Positions 1,503 through 61,346 of a stretch of 64,000 bases of DNA are shown piece by piece. The stretch's first letter is position 1; each line of letters begins with the position of its first letter. The DNA comes from Chrysochromulina parva. Taxonomy: Eukaryota > Haptophyta > Prymnesiales > Chrysochromulinaceae. The translations under genes were made by a program, and so were the position numbers. A model generated the notes under the pieces. The model was given only the letters and a program-made list of their open reading frames with translations. It made no database searches and was not told the origin of the DNA. The stretch spans positions 37,753 through 101,752 of the forward strand of contig PJAB01000001.1 in the NCBI GenBank assembly GCA_002887195.1, read 5' to 3'.

Positions 1503-4349
1503 ATGAAAGTTCGCAAGCCCCGAGGTCACCCCGGAGACGCAATGACCTCGGAGCCCCCTATTGCGTCTCCGCTCAAGCGTGGCGCTGCGGCCTTCGACGG
1601 CGCGCCGCGCGGGAAGCGCCTGCAGGGCGAGCTCCAAGGCGACGCGACGCAGCCTCAGCGCACTCTCGGCGCGCCGCGAGCACATGCACGCCTCGGCCGC
1701 TACGAGACGGCGGGAGGAGTGTTGGTCGACTGCAACTCGTCAGGAGTGGAGGACCCGAACGCCGCGCTCGAGGCCCTCATCGATAAGCTCGAATCGCACC
1801 GTGGCTGCCTCTTTGAGTCTTCGTACGACTTTCCCGGTCGTTACGCGCGCTGGACGATGGGCTTCAGCGACCCGCCGCTCGTGCTTGAGGCACGCGGACC
1901 AGCCTTTGATGTTACCGCGCTCAACGAGCGCGGGCGCGTGCTGCTGCCGGCGATCGTGGCCACGCTGCGCGCGAGTCCTGCGCTTGACACGCTCGTCGAG
2001 CAGGAGGGGCTGCTGCGCGGCACCGTCAAGCCGGCCGAGGCGGGCTTCACCGAGGAGGAGCGGTCGCGCCAGCACTCGATCTTCTCGATCGTGCGCGCGC
2101 TGCAGGCGCTCTTCGCCTTCGAGGACGAGCCGCAGCTCGGGCTGTACGGCGCATTCGGGTACGACCTCACCTTCCAGTTCGAGTCGGTCAAGCTGCACCA
2201 GAAGCGCGATGCCTCCCAGCGCGACCTTGTCCTCTTCCTGCCTGACGAGATTCTCGTGATCGACATCCTCTCGAACGCCGCATGGCAGCTGCGCTATGAG
2301 TTCTCCGTCGGCGGCCGCTCGGCCTGGGTGAGCTCCACGGCAGGGCTTGCGCGCGGCGGGGAGAGCGTGCCGTACGTGCCCACTCCCGAGGCGCAGATCG
2401 TCAAGCGGCGCGATCACGTGCCGGGCGCGTTCGCCACCAAGGTGCTCCGGGCCAAGGAGGAGTTCAAGGTCGGCAACCTCTTCGAGAGCGTCCTCTCGCA
2501 GACCTTCTTCGAGCCGTGCCCGCACGGGCCCTCGGCCGTCTTCCGCCGGCTGCGCAAGCGGAACCCGTCGCCGTACGGCTTCCTGATCAACCTGGGGAAC
2601 TCTGAGTATCTCGTGGGGGCCTCGCCTGAGATGTTCGTGCGTGTCGAGAAGAACGACAAGGGGTGGCGTTGCGAAACGTGCCCGATCTCGGGCACGATCA
2701 AGCGCGGTGCGAACGCGATGGAGGATGCGGAGAACATCAAGAAGATCCTGTCCGATGCCAAAGAGGAGAGCGAGCTGACCATGTGCACGGACGTCGACCG
2801 GAACGACAAGAGTCGCATCTGCCGTGCGGGCTCGGTGCAGGTCATCGGACGACGCCAAATCGAGATGTACTCGCGCCTCATCCACACCGTCGACCATGTC
2901 GAGGGCTACCTACGCGAGGGCTTCGACGCGATGGACGCCTTCCTTGTGCACACGTGGGCTGTCACCGTGACAGGCGCACCCAAGACGTGAGTGCTTGCTG
3001 ACGGCCGTTGATTTGAGTGCCTCCGTTTGTGCACCACTGTTTGAGTGCATGCTGATGGTCACTGATGACCACCCAAGACATGGGCCGCCGTCCGAGTCGT
3101 CGAAGAGAGGACTCCCTGACTGCCTCTGAGTGCATGCTGATGGGGACTGATGGCTACCCTCATCAGAGAGGACTCCCTGACTGCCTCTGAGTGCGTGCTG
3201 ATGGGGACTGATGGCTACCCTCATCAGAGAGGACTCCCTGACTGCCTCTGAGTGCATGCTGATGGGCACTGATGGCTACCCTCATCAGGTGGGCGATCCA
3301 ATTCCTGTCCGATCTCCCTCCGAGCCACTATGCTGATTGCATGCTGATTGCCTCCCTCATCAGGTGGGCGATCCAATTCCTGGAGGAGATGGAGGAGAGC
3401 CCTCGATGCTGGTACGGCGGCGCCGTGGGGATGCTCGGATTCGATGGGCACCTGAACACGGGCCTCACTTTGCGCACCGTGCGCATCGCGAACGGCGTGG
3501 CCGAGGTACGCGAAGCCGCCCCCTGCGCCGTCACCTGTGGGGAAATGGCGCCATGATGAGCACATGCATGCTGGTGTACCGCAGGTACGCGCCGGTGCGA
3601 CGCTCCTCTTCGACTCGGAGCCCGAGCTCGAGGAGCGTGAGACGGAGCTCAAGGCCTCTGCGATGCGCGATGCCGTGCTGCGGGATGATTCGGAGAGTGC
3701 GGCCGGTGCGCCCTCCACTCTGCCGGGCCCCGCAGCGCCGCCGCGGGCGCCCAACGCGGCGCGCATCTTGCTCGTCGACCACCAGGACTCGTTCGTTCAC
3801 ACTCTCGCCAACTACATGCGCCAGACGGGCGCGCTCGTCACGACGCTCCGTAACGGCTTCGCGCCGTCGGTCCTCGACACGCTGCAGCCAACTCTGGTCG
3901 TCCTCTCGCCCGGGCCAGGCAATCCGCGCGACTTCGGGCTCTCCGTGAGCATCGATCTCGCACTCGCACGCAAGCTCCCCATCTTTGGGGTGTGCCTCGG
4001 CCTGCAGGGGATCGTGGAACATTATGGAGGCGAGCTCGGAGTGTTGCCCCACCCACAGCACGGCAAGCCCGCACAGGTGACCATCCAAGAGCCGTGTGGG
4101 CCCCTGCTCGAGGGGTTGCCGACCTCCTTCCAGGTTGGCCGTTACCACTCGCTACACTCGAAGCCAGCCAAACAGCCGGCCTGTCTGCGCACGACCGCCA
4201 TCACCACTGACGGTTGCGTGATGGCCATCCAGCACACGTCGCTCCCCATCGCGGCCGTGCAGTTCCACCCGGAGTCGATCCTCACGCCGCACTCGCTCGG
4301 CATGCAGATGATCTCCAACGCTCTCAACAACCTCAAGTGGACCGAATGA
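1503..4349 (+). CDS. trpEG: Fused anthranilate synthase TrpE-TrpG, join(1503..2986, 3364..3505, 3585..4349)
   Basis: Spliced product is 796 residues. The TrpE (chorismate-binding) part ends with the VTVTGAPK motif at the end of exon 1. The TrpG glutamine amidotransferase part begins near residue 600 ([15 protein letters not shown]) and carries the class I triad: Cys679 in GVCLGLQ, and His770 and Glu772 in FHPESI. It should convert chorismate and glutamine to anthranilate in one chain, the first step of tryptophan synthesis, probably in the plastid, although I see no clear transit peptide. Exon joins are fixed by protein continuity: [14 protein letters not shown] across intron 1 and [14 protein letters not shown] across the last intron. 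The first intron region is composite: if the inner 75 bp (3289-3363) is kept as exon, 25 in-frame residues are added. Single-chain TrpE-TrpG enzymes are known from some bacteria such as rhizobia. Confidence 0.9.
2987..3363 (+). other. Composite introner-like intron region in trpEG
   Basis: Begins with a strong GTGAGT donor at 2987. The final acceptor CATCAG ends at 3363. Inside are (i) a copy of the exon-1 end, CACCCAAGAC (2977-2986), repeated at 3070-3079 and followed by ATGGGC, which resembles the exon-2 start; (ii) three 61-bp tandem units at 3106-3288, each ending CATCAG; and (iii) a 75-bp element 3289-3363 that starts with an exact 19-bp copy of the exon-2 start. Splicing may use the acceptor at 3288 or at 3363. 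Confidence 0.85.
3106..3288 (+). repeat. Three 61-bp tandem units inside an intron
   Basis: Units are 3106-3166, 3167-3227 and 3228-3288, differing by single bases (GCATGC or GCGTGC; GGGGACT or GGGCACT). Each begins AGAGGACTCCCTGACTGCC and ends CCCTCATCAG, so each supplies a possible 3' splice site. CTGATG inside each unit is complementary to its own CATCAG end. Confidence 0.95.
3506..3584 (+). other. 79-bp introner-like intron in trpEG
   Basis: Exon 2 ends GCCGAG, the intron begins GTACGCG, the intron ends ACCGCAG and exon 3 begins GTACGCG. AGGTACGCG is therefore present at both boundaries (3504-3512 and 3583-3591). Removal restores [11 protein letters not shown]. The interior carries TGCATGCTG, also found in the preceding intron. 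Confidence 0.9.
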
Positions 4350-5680: not shown

Positions 5681-8371
5681 ATGTCGGATTCGGGATCAAG
5701 ATATGACTCCGAGGAGGAGGGGGAGGAGTTAGGGGAGGAGTTCGACGAAGAATTCGCGCCGGATGCGGGTGGTGAAGCTGATCCAGAGGCTGAAGATGAG
5801 TACAGTTTTGTGGAGGAGGACGGACAGGTGAAGGCACGGTCTCCCTCCTCATCTGCAAGCTGGCAACGACGAGCAGGCGAGAGGGTTCGTGGAGTCGAGG
5901 ATGAGGCAGACGATGACGAGGAAGAATCATTCGTGCAGAACGAGGAATCTTTCGAGCAGCACGAGGATGACCACCAATTCGAGGAGAAAACAGCATCCTC
6001 GCTCACGTCCGACACGCCCTTTGTTCCCACACCCGGCGGCGTCTTTGCCATGCTAGCGAGCGTTTCGGACGCCGCCGGCGACCTTCCCCCGCTTTTTTTC
6101 CGGTCGTGTGCGCCTGCAGCTGCAGGCGTGTTGACTTCTCCGCAGGAAGTATCGAACGCGAGACGACGTTTGATGAGAATCTCGGAAGAGCCCAGTTCTC
6201 CTCCTGCAGAGTCAAGTTCTCCTCCCGCAGGAGACCTGGAAGCGGCACTTGAAGCCGACCAGGTTTCGGGGGAGGCCCCGGCTGATCTAGCAGGAGTTAC
6301 AGTGCGTGCGTTTGATGCAGATGGCGACGGAAAGCTTTCGTTCGGAGACATGGGAGCTATGCTCGATCAAGCGCTGGGCGGGGCGTTGGGTGGCGTGGCC
6401 GCGTTGATGGCATCTCTGCCGAACATGGCCGCGCCTGCGCCTGTGCCCAAACCTGCGCCAGCCCCCAAGCCTGTGCCAGCCCCCGAGCCTACGCCAGCGC
6501 CCGAACCTACGCCGGCGCCCGAGCCTACTGGATTTGAGGATCGCTTGGGGTTGCATTGGACACGGCTGGACCAGAAGCCCTTCGGTCGACGGCTCGAGAA
6601 TGCAAAGCTTTCCGCTGCCATCGCGGAAGGCAAGAGGACATTTACTCGAGAAGAGTTTGAAGGCTTGAAACTGGGTCGTGACCTGCACGATGATACCTTC
6701 TACATCGTCGCGAAAGGGGTCTACTATGAGCCGACGCCTCAGGAAGGCTCGATCCTCTGTCCGCTGTGCAAGCGCGTCTGGCTGACCGTCACGCTAGACG
6801 GATGGATTACGACCGAATTTGTGGGGAGCTTCGTCGGAACGGGCAAATCCTACAGGCTAGCCCAGGGAAGCCGGGACGACCACGTGTGTGCCGGACACTG
6901 CAACGTGGGCAGAATGAAGCTCGCGACAAGGGATCTGGCCTCACCTATCGAACTGCTGCGCGAGAGAGTGGATGCGATGCTTCGAGGCGGGACTTTGCAG
7001 CCCAGAAAGGAGGTGGAGGTGGCGGCCAAAACAGTACAAGACGTCTCGCCGACTCGACGTCACAGTCGAGATGTCTTGAACTTTACGGCCGAGTCGGCGA
7101 AAGTGAAAGGGCCTGCACATCGCCGCAAGAGCAGCAAGAGCAGCAAGACGCTGCCGACCTCAGCCCGTGGGAACTTAGCCCGGCCATGGCTTTCGTTGGA
7201 ATCCTCGACGACGTCGTCGGAGGCATCGCCGGGCGCACTGATTCGAGAAACAACTACGGAGGCCCTCGTTCGTCGATTCGAGGTCGAGCGAGCAAGACGC
7301 GAGCTGGGCGAAGAGGAGCGCCAGTTGCGCAGGGAGCGCCAAGAGTACCTCAAGCACGAGGCGGAGCAGTACAAGCAGCACTGCGTTACCGTGGTCGCTG
7401 CCGAGCGGGATCAAAAGACACGCATTGATGCTGCTAGGAAGAGTATCATCGAGGCGCGCACAGCGCGAGGGAAAGAGACCCAGCTGCAAAGCCATGCTAT
7501 CAGCGAGGAGCTCGAACAGCGGCGCCTCTCCTACGACATCCACCAGCGACGACGCGTGCAAGAGACGAAAAGCATGCAGGAGCGTGCCATCCAGAATGTC
7601 TTCGAGGTTGCTCGCGCGGGCGGGATACGTGCCCTTGAGGCAGGGCGTGTAGCAAAGCAGGAACAGCTGGTGAACGAGGTCGCTGTCGACCACGCGCGCC
7701 AGGCCAGACTCGAGGAGAAGCGCGAGCGAGCGCGCACGGCGCGCGAAGCGATGCCCGACAGGCTCGCTTCCTCCGCCGCTCTGTGGGCGCAGGATCGGGT
7801 GGTGGCGGGGCAGGTGCTGCGCGCCATCGCATCTGAGGGCAAGTTGCAGCGAGAGGCGGAGATCCAAGCTCGTCGCGAAGGCGCGCTTGTGTTCCGCGAC
7901 GAAGTGCGGTCGTGGAGGGACAGCAGCCGAATCGTCCGTGCGCAGATCGAGGAGGGCCGGAAGCAGCTCGCGCAGACGACGCGCGAGCAGCGCGTCGTCC
8001 ACGAGGAGGTGTGCCATCAGATCGTGCAGCAGGCGATGCTCGCGCGCAAGGTGTCGCACGACAGCGTCTGCCTCGCTCGGCAGGCAGATGAGGAGCTCGT
8101 GGTGGAGTACCAAGAGTTCCAGCACGCGATTGAAGCGGAGGCTCAAAGCTACACCGACAAGCGGGCAGCGGCCGCCAAACGGGCAACGGCAGCACGAAAG
8201 CGTGACCGGCGGCAGGAGCGTGGCCGCATGCGTGGCCTGTTGCTTCAGATTGCGGGCCGGCCGCCGCGTGTCGACTCCGTGCCGCACGCTCCGCTGAGCC
8301 TGACGCACCCTCCCCGACCGTGGCCCTTCAGCCCGCCGTCGCGCGAGGATAGGCTAGCCATTAGGATATGA
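5681..8371 (+). CDS. EF-hand and coiled-coil protein of unknown function
   Basis: 896 residues from the ATG at 5681. The frame is open upstream to 5504, but that part reads like 5' UTR and the start MSDSGSRYDSEEEGEE suits an acidic N-terminus. Order of parts: very acidic N-terminus (~1-100), one EF-hand loop DADGDGKLSF (~210), a pentapeptide-like PAPKPVPAPEP linker, then a ~63-residue domain (LGLHWTRLDQK to VYYEP; DNA about 6541-6738) that also occurs in the SMCHD1-like protein at 30.5-30.7 kb. A CPLCKRVW segment with a later Cys and His follows, possibly zinc binding. The last ~400 residues form a long Arg/Glu/Gln-rich coiled coil (SVRRFEVERARRELGEEE type). The coiled coil recalls axonemal or centriolar proteins, but I do not recognise the family. 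Confidence 0.75.
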   Translation: MSDSGSRYDSEEEGEELGEEFDEEFAPDAGGEADPEAEDEYSFVEEDGQVKARSPSSSASWQRRAGERVRGVEDEADDDEEESFVQNEESFEQHEDDHQFEEKTASSLTSDTPFVPTPGGVFAMLASVSDAAGDLPPLFFRSCAPAAAGVLTSPQEVSNARRRLMRISEEPSSPPAESSSPPAGDLEAALEADQVSGEAPADLAGVTVRAFDADGDGKLSFGDMGAMLDQALGGALGGVAALMASLPNMAAPAPVPKPAPAPKPVPAPEPTPAPEPTPAPEPTGFEDRLGLHWTRLDQKPFGRRLENAKLSAAIAEGKRTFTREEFEGLKLGRDLHDDTFYIVAKGVYYEPTPQEGSILCPLCKRVWLTVTLDGWITTEFVGSFVGTGKSYRLAQGSRDDHVCAGHCNVGRMKLATRDLASPIELLRERVDAMLRGGTLQPRKEVEVAAKTVQDVSPTRRHSRDVLNFTAESAKVKGPAHRRKSSKSSKTLPTSARGNLARPWLSLESSTTSSEASPGALIRETTTEALVRRFEVERARRELGEEERQLRRERQEYLKHEAEQYKQHCVTVVAAERDQKTRIDAARKSIIEARTARGKETQLQSHAISEELEQRRLSYDIHQRRRVQETKSMQERAIQNVFEVARAGGIRALEAGRVAKQEQLVNEVAVDHARQARLEEKRERARTAREAMPDRLASSAALWAQDRVVAGQVLRAIASEGKLQREAEIQARREGALVFRDEVRSWRDSSRIVRAQIEEGRKQLAQTTREQRVVHEEVCHQIVQQAMLARKVSHDSVCLARQADEELVVEYQEFQHAIEAEAQSYTDKRAAAAKRATAARKRDRRQERGRMRGLLLQIAGRPPRVDSVPHAPLSLTHPPRPWPFSPPSREDRLAIRI

Positions 8372-41095: not shown

Positions 41096-44000
41096 ATGCC
41101 TCGGAAGGCTGCTGGAGCCGGCAGCTCGAGCTCGAGTGACCCACCACCTGAATCACCGCTGCCTACTTCCCCGCGCAGCCTGAATCGGCAGGCAAAGCTG
41201 CACAGATTGCTCAAGCAGCTGCATTCACACGCCGCAGAAGGCAGCAGCGAGGCCGAGGTGGCCGCAAAAGCTGCAGGCCACAGGGGGGCGCTCGGCCCTC
41301 TCGGCGACGGCACGGAGGAGGCGCAGCCTGCCATTGGCGCGGCCACGGCACACGCGGCCAGCGGCGGCCGCAAGGGCAAGGGTGGCAAGCGCAAGCGTGA
41401 GGACGAGGAGGCCGACGGCGACGAGTCCTCAGGCGTGGCCGCCTCGGGCGCAGGCGGCGGCCGCGGCAGCAGCAGCAGCAGCAGCAAGCTGCCAGGAGGC
41501 GACCTGCCACCGCCGCTCCAGGTGGACGTGGACGCCGCCAATGGCGAGCGCAGCGGCAGCGGCAGCGGCGGCGGTCGCGGCCGCGGCCGTGGCCGCGGCC
41601 GCGGCGGCCGACGCGGCGGTCGCGGTAGCGGTGGCGACGGCGGCGGTGGCGGTGGTGGCGGCGGTGGCGGCGGTGGCGGCGGTGGCGGCGGCGGCGGCGG
41701 TGGCGGCGGTGGCGGTGGTCGCAGCGCAGGGAGCAGCGGCGTGGGGTCGTCGTCGCAGCAGCCGCAGCCCAACTTTCGCGGTGGGCGCAAGGGCAAGCGA
41801 CCGCAGTCAGCCAACGCTGGCAGCAGCAGCGGTGGCCCTCAACTCTCGGCGCCGCGCTGTATCTTCAAAAACCATCACTTCACCTCCGACCCACCGCCGG
41901 AGGTGGCATACGAGTTCAGCTCTGTGCCAGCAGTCAAGGCTGATCTGGCGGGTTCGGTGCTACTGCGGCCCGTCTCGCGGCGGCAGTGGTTCGTGTGCAT
42001 CCAGGAGCTCGAGTCGCTCGCCCAGGAGAGTCTCGACAGACGCGCCGCGCGCCTCTCGATGAACGTGCCTTCGGGGCTGCCGCTCGTGTACATAGCTGAC
42101 CGGATGGACATCGATGACCCTCTCTGGGGCTACCAGCTGCGGTGCGAGTCGACGAGAGCAAGACCTCTGATGGCCCCTGATGACCCCTGATGGTCACTGA
42201 TGACCACTGATTGCCTCTTTCATCAGGTGCGAGTCGACGGGATGGCTGCAAGGATTCATCACGTGCACGACGTTCACGACGTGGACGCACTTCTTCGAGT
42301 GGAACTCGAAGCACCTCGCCTCGGGCATGGCAGCCGCGCGCGTGGCCAATTCGCTCGTGGGTCAAGAGGACCCGGCGCTCACGTGGTCAGAAGGCGGGGA
42401 GACGGTGATGCAGGTGGCGCACCGGTGCGACGTCAAGTCAGCAGACTTGGTCAAGTGGAACCTTGCGCGCTTCCCGAACATCACGGTCAACTCGCGCGTC
42501 CAAGCTGGCACCGCCTTTTTTATCACCGACCCGGGGCTCGTCGATACACTCACGCTTGAGAAGGCAGAGATGCCCAAGCAGGTGGCGAAGCGGTTGGGGA
42601 TCTCCGTGGACGATCTGCTGCAGCTGAACTCGGAGAAGCATCCGGATCTGACGGCGACGACGAAGCTCAAGCCGGGCGCGACGCTCATCGTGCGCGATCG
42701 CTCCTCGGAGCCCGACGTGTTCCTGCCGACGCAGAAGCAGGAGCGCGTGCTCGACGACGACGGCTCGCTCGCCGAGGAACTGCAGGCGCAGGAACACTCG
42801 GGCGACCCGATGACGACGGGCGTCGTGTGGCCGCGGATTGCGGAGCTCGGGCTACTCGCGGGCTTGGGCGCGGGCAAGCTGCTCGTGCGCCTGGCCCTCG
42901 AGGAGCTGCGCGCGAGCAGCGAGTACGATTTCGTCGTGCTGCAGGCGACGATGGCCTCCGTCTCGTTTTACGAGGAGCTTGGCTTTGTGCGCGTGGGTGC
43001 GATTGCTAAGTACCATCCAGAGGGCACCTCGATCGACCAGAACCCGATGCAGGGCTACCGGCACTGGGCGTGCGCCGACGAGTCGCGAGTCGATGAGTTT
43101 GGCGACACCTCGTACATGATGGCGCTCAAGCTGCAGACGATGACGCCCGACCATGCTGTCACGAAGATGCTCGCTAAGAGGTTAACGAGCGAGTGGCCTG
43201 CCGTGGACGGCGCGCCGTCGTCGGCGCGAAAGAAGGGCAAGCACGGCGGCTCGCACCACAAGAGCCACAACGCCGCGGGCATCCTCAAGCCAGTCGGCTC
43301 GTCGCTCCAAGTGGGCGACATGTCGCTCAACGTCGACGAGGGGGACGAGGCGCGTCTTCAGCTGCGGTACGAGGTCGAAAAGATCTTAGACTCAAAGGGA
43401 CCCCATGGGTCCACGCAGTACCTTGTGAAGTGGAAGCACCTGACAGTGGACGACGCGACGTGGGAGAAGGCAACGTCCGAGCTGATGCAGTCGAGCGCCG
43501 CCAAGGCGGCGCTCGCGCGCTTCCGCAAGCAGCCAAGCGGAGGCTCCAAGCGCTCGCACCACGGCCCTAGCGAGGGGAGTAGCAACGCGAAGCACGTCGA
43601 GGAGACGAGCACCAGAGGCGCGCCGTCGGCAACACCGCGCTGGTCGCACCGGATCGTGCGCTCGCTGCTTCACGACCAGGCGCCCGAGCCCGTGCTGGCA
43701 GGCGACCGCATCTTCCAGGGAGGTCTGGGTGAGATGCCGCGCATGCCAAACTCGGCGCTCGTGGAGGCCAACCCGTCTCACAGCCTCGAGCGCGAGCACC
43801 GCTTTTGGCTCGTGGTGCGTTACGCGCCCATCTCGAACAAGTGCACGCTCGTGCCCCTGCACGCCGCCGGCCGCTTTGGCGGCTGCGGCCGGCGTGCAGG
43901 GCGCATCCGTTGGCGCCCGGCGCCGCTCAAGGAGGGCTTCGAACGTGACGCGCAGGCGTCGACTCTCGAAGCCGTTATGGCGGAGGCAGTGCATGGCGCG

Positions 44001-44387
44001 CGCGAGGCGGAAGGGGAGGTGTGGTGCATCGACGAGCTCGACGTCGAGCAGGCTGCACGAGAGCAAGCGTCCTCCTCGCGTAACAAGCGCCGCCAGCTGC
44101 TTGACATTGAGCTCGAGCCGCACCTGGCGGCGTCTGCGCCTGCACTCGGCTCCGGCACGCGCTCGGGCAGCGTGCTGCGCGGGATGGACGGCACGAGCGC
44201 TGCCACGATGATGGGACTGACCTTCCCGCCGCGGCGTAAGCCATCGACGCCGCGCCCGCCGCGCGAGCCAGGCTCCGGCCCGCCGCGTAAGAAGAAGCGC
44301 CTCGCGCCAGCGTCGAGCTCATGCCTAGCGTGTACCAAAGGCAAGCACTGCGCGCACACGTGCGGCGTGCGGGGCAAGGCAGCTGAG

Positions 44388-44425
<38 letters not shown>

Positions 44426-44471
44426 GGGTGAGTCGGGTGCGGCTGACGAAAGCGGTGACAGCGGCGAGTGA
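41096..44471 (+). CDS. GNAT acetyltransferase-like protein with LysM pair and chromodomain, join(41096..42141, 42227..44471)
   Basis: 1,096 residues. The codon at 41081 is GTG, so the ATG at 41096 is used. Exon 1 has a Ser/Ala-rich start, an RGRGRGRGGRRGG tract and ~30 glycines, then the first part of a GNAT fold (SGLPLVYIADRMDIDDPLWGYQL). The junction QLRCESTGWLQGFIT continues it. Two LysM-like modules (~400-445, GETVMQVAHRCDVKSADLVKWN; ~450-500, EMPKQVAKRLGISVDDLLQLN) then interrupt the fold before its acetyl-CoA-binding part (ELGLLAGLGAGKLLVRLALEEL) and VSFYEELGFVRVG (~549-610). A chromodomain follows (~723-765, YEVEKILDSKG to YLVKWKHLTVDDATWE). The C-terminus carries CLACTKGKHCAHTCG, probably zinc-binding. 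A chromatin acetyltransferase is inferred. Confidence 0.8.
41630..41725 (+). repeat. GGC/GGT repeat encoding polyglycine
   Basis: Imperfect GGCGGTGGC trinucleotide repeat in exon 1 of the acetyltransferase gene, coding for about 30 glycines. Confidence 0.95.
42142..42226 (+). other. 85-bp introner-like intron with 13-bp direct repeat
   Basis: GTGCGAGTCGACG is found at 42142-42154 (intron start, supplying the GT donor) and at 42227-42239 (exon 2 start). The intron ends TTTCATCAG. Its interior is made of CTGATGRCCC/CACTGATGACC words like those of trpEG intron 1. Splicing joins QLR to CESTGW and keeps the GNAT fold intact. Confidence 0.92.
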
Positions 44472-61242: not shown

Positions 61243-61346
61243 CTCGCAAGAGGGACCTAAAAAGGGACTGGTATGTCAAACCCTTTATTTCTATGATGGC
61301 GGGCTTGAGCCAACAGCCACGCTTCGTCTGGTCGCAAGAGGGACCT

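Follow-up and report, generated by a model that had tools for sequence, protein, structure and literature searches.

On the forward strand of the window, by which we mean the whole 64-kb stretch of DNA analysed here (positions 37753-101752 of contig C1, in an assembly of 45.07 Mb and 2199 contigs from the haptophyte Chrysochromulina), a gene with LysM, weakly GNAT-like and chromodomain regions is divided by an 85-nt segment, GT...CATCAG. The segment starts with 13 bases that recur immediately after its end (Table 1). This repeat, GTGCGAGTCGACG, is exact in its two copies at a spacing of 85 bases; counting the G ahead of it extends the match to 14 bases, and allowing one mismatch gives 16 of 17. 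The filler that separates the left copy from the CTGAT units is, by eye, 0 to about 30 bases long at the same point in other copies of the element described below.

Table 1. Features at the segment and at a related insert elsewhere in the window
Feature	Position	Strand	Basis
Exon 1 of the LysM / weakly GNAT-like / chromodomain gene, to ...DDPLWGYQL	41096..42141	+	ORF; P0017 has the same start Met; homologs align over the block preceding the junction
Putative 85-nt GT-AG intron (insert including left duplication copy)	42142..42226	+	removal gives a continuous conserved frame; retention gives a stop inside the segment
Left target-duplication copy, GTGCGAGTCGACG, putative 5′ splice site	42142..42154	+	exact repeat
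Unrelated filler between duplication and array	42155..42166	+	sequence
Four 10-base CTGAT units, CTGATGGCCC, CTGATGACCC, CTGATGGTCA and CTGATGACCA, branch-point-like	42167..42206	+	sequence, repeat comparison
Terminal CTGATTGCCTCTTTCATCAG, branch-point-like motif and putative 3′ splice site	42207..42226	+	18 of 20 bases as in the genome-wide 20-mer
Right duplication copy, first bases of exon 2	42227..42239	+	exact repeat
Exon 2, with GWLQGFIT block, LysM, weak GNAT and chromodomain	42227..44471	+	ORF, Pfam, homolog alignment
Second class member, 75 nt, ending in CTGATTGCCTCCCTCATCAG, carrying a 19-bp copy of the sequence that follows it and adjoining a 61-bp tandem array	3289..3363	+	

When the segment is retained, the reading frame stops after RCESTRARPLMAPDDP; when it is removed, the frame continues as YQLRCESTGWLQGF. 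The assembly also contains three paralogs that align with the joined frame at the DNA level, open and gap-free across the junction. Similarly, homologous proteins are continuous at this point in all 12 that cover it (14 of 92 matches were aligned, of which P0008 and P0009 do not reach across it), as illustrated by GYQLRCESSGWLQGF in P0001, the nearest homolog, which is 83% identical. Homologs with names come from the haptophytes Haptolina ericina, Prymnesium parvum and Emiliania huxleyi and from other algae, Triparma for example; they were compared as predicted proteins, and the gene model of a relative may have correctly removed an intron there. From this coding continuity we infer that the segment is spliced out. 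The open paralogs and the continuous proteins further indicate that the target exon was uninterrupted before the insertion. One homologous sequence, P0017 (a cluster of 12 members), has the same start Met, reads into the start of the putative intron and stops, much as the unspliced window would, with one residue that differs from the window; at least one sequence besides the window thus has the insert.

The original prediction held that removal of the segment restores a GNAT fold. What removal restores is the reading frame, as judged from the homologs and the three paralogs; the Pfam GNAT match itself is weak (19.2 bits against a cut-off of 23.6) and is confined to exon 2, about 630 bases past the junction, and the LysM and chromodomain matches likewise fall within exon 2. 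Folding of the 85-nt RNA gave nothing unusual (z 0.66), and scans of the whole window for Rfam families and tRNAs gave no matches. In the assembly, RVT_1 (reverse transcriptase) had five matches above cut-off.

Copies of the 3′ end in the assembly

Members of the class to which the segment belongs have a common anatomy: the first 11-41 bases of the exon downstream, which begin with GT or GC, are copied at the start of the insert, and CTGAT-type tandem units and then an acceptor near the 20-mer CTGATTGCCTCCCTCATCAG follow. Exact occurrences of this 20-mer in the assembly number at least 462, a count that excludes copies whose third following base is T; its reversed control has none. Among 100 places listed, the 20-mer was followed by GT in 71, by GC in 15 and by other bases in 14, and a 30-mer version had GT next in 37 of its 44 occurrences (both counted by hand). 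The simplest account of this GT/GC bias after CATCAG would be selection for insertions that splice. In searches with longer queries, the CTGAT stretch 42167-42206 had at least 77 matches in the assembly including itself (40 of 293 candidates scored), and the segment at 3289 at least 51, again including itself (40 of 125 scored), 14 of them with a perfect 36-base 3′ end. No match to the 20-mer plus G was found in viral_contigs or genome_contigs. Many similar introns thus occupy unrelated positions, with at least 462 copies of the 20-mer and differing genes around the copies examined, and their similarity is confined to the short 3′ end and the array.

We then considered the coding context of other members. 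When the flanks were joined at 25 inserts, fewer than 13 residues of open frame preceded the insert in five (L020, L045-5225, L027 and two in L015), which leaves their coding context uncertain. Pfam was run on six other genes, chosen for their conserved appearance; after removal of the insert a domain extended across the junction in five of them (Ion_trans, HSP70, FAD_binding_1, ketoacyl-synt and PKD_channel), and in the sixth (L018, MMR_HSR1) the domain begins at the junction.

Several layouts departed from the simple one. In the window, positions 3104-3288 hold three tandem 61-bp units that end in an acceptor-like CATCAG directly before the 3289-3363 insert, an arrangement suggestive of an intron unit multiplying in tandem. 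Tandem arrays of 65-83 bases per unit, consisting of exon start plus element, or close copies, were seen at L020, C48, C93, C271 (L058), C838, C999 and C1486; they suggest repeated insertion at one target or duplication of a unit. At L054, L058 and L059 the string ATCCTCGACC precedes a CTGATTGCATG array in all three, perhaps marking the 5′ end of one subfamily. At L045, about 5900-6014, a duplication-flanked insert is built of another 10-base unit, (TGGATTGCGA)n, and ends in CGCGAG.

Exon-start duplications and matched controls

In a 264-kb survey, sites with TCATCAG followed by GT were scored for an upstream copy of the bases after TCATCAG. At a score of at least 10, a copy was present at 6 of 13 sites and at 0 of 180 partner-shuffled pairings; two of the six lie in the window, and outside it the proportion is 4 of 10, of which three are in one 10-kb stretch (L045). 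Chance is accordingly an implausible origin for the exact 13-bp direct repeat at 42142, which the original prediction had correctly described. For TCATCAG followed by any base the count was 22 of 47 at a score of at least 13, against 3 of 194, many of these being tandem arrays. Sites with CAG followed by GTG, other than TCATCAG, gave 10 of 199 at a score of at least 12, against 1 of 3570; coding tandem repeats contribute to this figure, so no rate was drawn from it. A raw scan for repeat-flanked GT-AG pairs was rejected as evidence, being swamped by tandem repeats: it returned 12 pairs, no excess in view of the counts for all 256 pairs of dinucleotides, which average 9.1 with a median of 7 and a maximum of 46. 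Since coding and satellite repeats dominate such a count, it is not special for GT-AG, and the signal emerges with a matched null.

A sample of 20 copies was picked before their sequences were seen, from the first 56 listed rows of the 20-mer (19 of the 35 GT rows and one GC row), leaving out the window's own copy and mostly also members of close pairs. A duplication of the exon start with a score of at least 11 was found in 12 of the 20, against 10 of 3830 mismatched pairings of an upstream region with the exon of another copy, and several of these duplications are exact across 16-26 bases. The other eight sampled copies had no simple duplication; two that were scored as misses, L071 and L085, carry duplications in more complex layouts by eye. 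These eight also demonstrate that introns of the same composition exist without a simple duplication, as would be expected if the segment were an old intron sharing bases with its exon by accident. Such a coincidence is nevertheless highly improbable, given the null rates of the survey and of the sample, the three paralogs that lack the segment and the continuity of the homologous proteins.

We then aligned intron start and exon start in the 12 members with a duplication. Identity was 0.67-1.0 at positions 1-25, 0.58 at 26-27 and 0.25 at 28. Upstream of the junction it was 0.67 and 0.50 at the first two bases and 0.17-0.50 thereafter, so that background was reached within two bases. The left edge of the duplication thus coincides with the splice junction, where the intron begins with GT (or GC), and one splice site derives from the duplication. 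The earlier claim that the donor came from duplicated exon DNA and that the element brought only the acceptor stands in its first part; the second has to be widened, for the branch-point-like CTGAT units were brought too.

The sharp left edge also bears on a different origin, tandem duplication of an existing intron-exon border, by which a second copy of the exon start would have been made along with intron sequence. The tandem arrays of exon start plus element at L020, L058, C48, C999 and C1486 (65-83 bases per unit) are of the kind this process would leave, as is the CCCTCATCAG that precedes the 3289 segment. At 42142, however, exon and not an intron end lies before the left copy, identity upstream of the junction falls to background in the 12 sampled members as described above, and the paralogs have no intron at this site. 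We consider a border duplication very unlikely at this locus.

Duplication length was 13-41 bases, with a median of 26, among 22 rows that passed a filter (score of at least 12, no preceding CAG, under 45 bases, L032 left out) and that include the array member L020 and the antisense repeat L022. Ten copies whose 36-base 3′ end is perfect were also inspected, and a clear duplication was present in seven (L050, L051 and L055-L059) and lacking in L052-L054. Among six copies that are not followed by GT, L061 and L064 have duplications of 34 and 37 bases respectively, L062 and L065 are arrays, and nothing clear was found in L060 and L063. The L064 duplication starts ahead of a GTGAGC, and at L085 a second insert comes after an exon end that was duplicated with its GT; both long duplications include an existing 5′ splice site and thereby leave a duplicated exon end beside the insert. 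From these two layouts, the insertion process itself seems not to need a GT at its edge.

Microhomology at the 5′ junction of the element was tried as a further feature and rejected as weak: its mean was 1.0 against 0.46 in the 13 introns kept for periodic arrays, a value equalled or exceeded in 2% of 2000 shuffles, and two introns carry most of it.

Origin of the segment and comparison with known introns

The 85-nt segment is best explained, with a probability that we put at roughly 0.8, as a spliceosomal intron recently gained when an introner-like element inserted into an exon that was uninterrupted until then. This reading of the sequence agrees with the original prediction and draws on the multi-copy 3′ element, the site-specific duplications in 12 of 20 sampled copies and the three uninterrupted paralogs. 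The exact 13-mer suggests that the gain was recent, and the age of the intron is only loosely bounded, as the nearest homolog is 83% identical. In the proposed course of events, an element with a fixed 3′ end would enter the exon at a staggered break or nick, and fill-in would leave a target duplication of 13-14 bp here and of 11-41 bp in other members. Because the duplicated stretch begins with GT, its left copy could become the 5′ splice site, a GC start being also usable in the class. The element would contribute the branch-point-like CTGAT repeats and the CATCAG acceptor. Splicing would then take out the left copy together with the element, returning the original coding sequence exactly and leaving the protein unchanged.

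How the element is copied or captured is a separate matter, and the mechanisms considered here overlap with the explanation above, so that their likelihoods do not add up to one. The combination of a constant 3′ end and a variable 5′ boundary is consistent with retroposition; break repair and a transposase are possible routes as well. In one form of retroposition, target-primed reverse transcription would seed new introns by copying, at nicks in exon DNA, the 3′ ends of intron RNAs after their excision. The 3′ end that is constant exactly at CAG, the variable 5′ end, the long and variable duplication and the donor supplied by the target all match such a process. We regard this route as tentative and on balance rather unlikely. 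If it were true, introns could be gained by retroposition, a path different from both reverse splicing and introners that move as DNA transposons.

Somewhat more probable, while still well short of an even chance, is repair of a staggered double-strand break that captured filler, without any mobile element, the likeness of the inserts then reflecting a common satellite filler. Neointrons of Daphnia pulex with repeats of 4-12 bp in the adjacent exon have been ascribed to staggered breaks (PMC4202315). The range of duplication lengths (11-41), the varying 5′ boundary of the element, the frequent filler and the abundance of CTGAT arrays in the assembly would all suit this process. An identical 20-mer 3′ end at no fewer than 462 places, abutting the duplication at the AG in sampled members, is on the other hand not expected of random filler, though selection for a working acceptor could enrich one. 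The Daphnia pulex repeats described in that work are also shorter than many here (13 bp at 42142, median 26 in the 22 filtered rows), and the present inserts share a multi-copy 3′ end, the 20-mer being common to the copies.

A DNA transposon of MITE type, bounded by the short terminal inverted repeats CTGAT and ATCAG, is an unlikely source. CTGAT, found at or near many 5′ ends, is the reverse complement of the 3′ ATCAG, and signs of DNA transposition are described for most introner families in the literature; yet the length of the duplication is not fixed, and unrelated filler often occupies the 5′ end, as in the insert at 42142. As a candidate for the terminal inverted repeats that some introner families have, only the five bases of CTGAT/ATCAG were seen, and the 5′ end varies among members.

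Introners of algae and other protists have been described, with Chrysochromulina among the hosts (Gozashti et al. 2022, PMC9860276). As in that survey, many similar introns are inserted into exons here, and introners that take their donor from the target duplication are already known. The survey cites duplications of 3-9 bp for previously characterised introner families, some families being without any, and the duplications here are longer and variable (13 bp at this locus, 11-41 bp in the class). Its Chrysochromulina example has 4-bp duplications and a splice-site arrangement opposite to that of the present class, whose low-complexity interior is of the type that the survey removed by hand. 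We therefore file the class as a variant: it works like an introner, yet lacks the 3-9 bp duplications of the earlier families.

The introner elements of Amoebophrya (PMC7789003) resemble the class in their direct repeats at the boundaries and their spread through the genome. They are described as having direct repeats of 3-5 nt, inverted repeats of 8-20 nt and mostly non-canonical splice sites, whereas the present class has GT/GC-AG borders and no long inverted repeat was seen. In intron gain by tandem genomic duplication (reviewed in PMC3443670) a splice site likewise comes from duplicated exon bases; there the duplicated AGGT-bounded segment itself constitutes the intron, while here 13 of 85 bases are an exon copy. 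More generally, intron borders are reported to have direct repeats of 4-30 bp nearby (PMC11782384). Our literature search found no report of introners with duplications this long, which does not prove that there is none. The class acts like introners, and the length and variability of its duplications and its low-complexity interior set it apart.

The origin of new introns is a long-standing question. In the single assembly studied, with at least 462 element 3′ ends, the target duplication is readable in over half of 20 sampled copies, nearly all of them followed by GT. Long variable duplications beside a constant 3′ end discriminate between DNA transposition, break repair and retroposition better than duplications of 3-9 bp.

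The same pattern can also occur with other 3′ ends, for example at L045, L047 and, on the minus strand, 61344; the list of such cases also holds coding repeats, so no rate was derived. The last of these, at 61257-61344 on the minus strand of the window, is an 88-nt GT-AG segment with a 13-bp repeat of the exon start (18 with the five preceding bases), whose 3′ end, CCAGTCCCTTTTTAG, differs from that of the class; the duplicated stretch could have supplied both of its splice sites.
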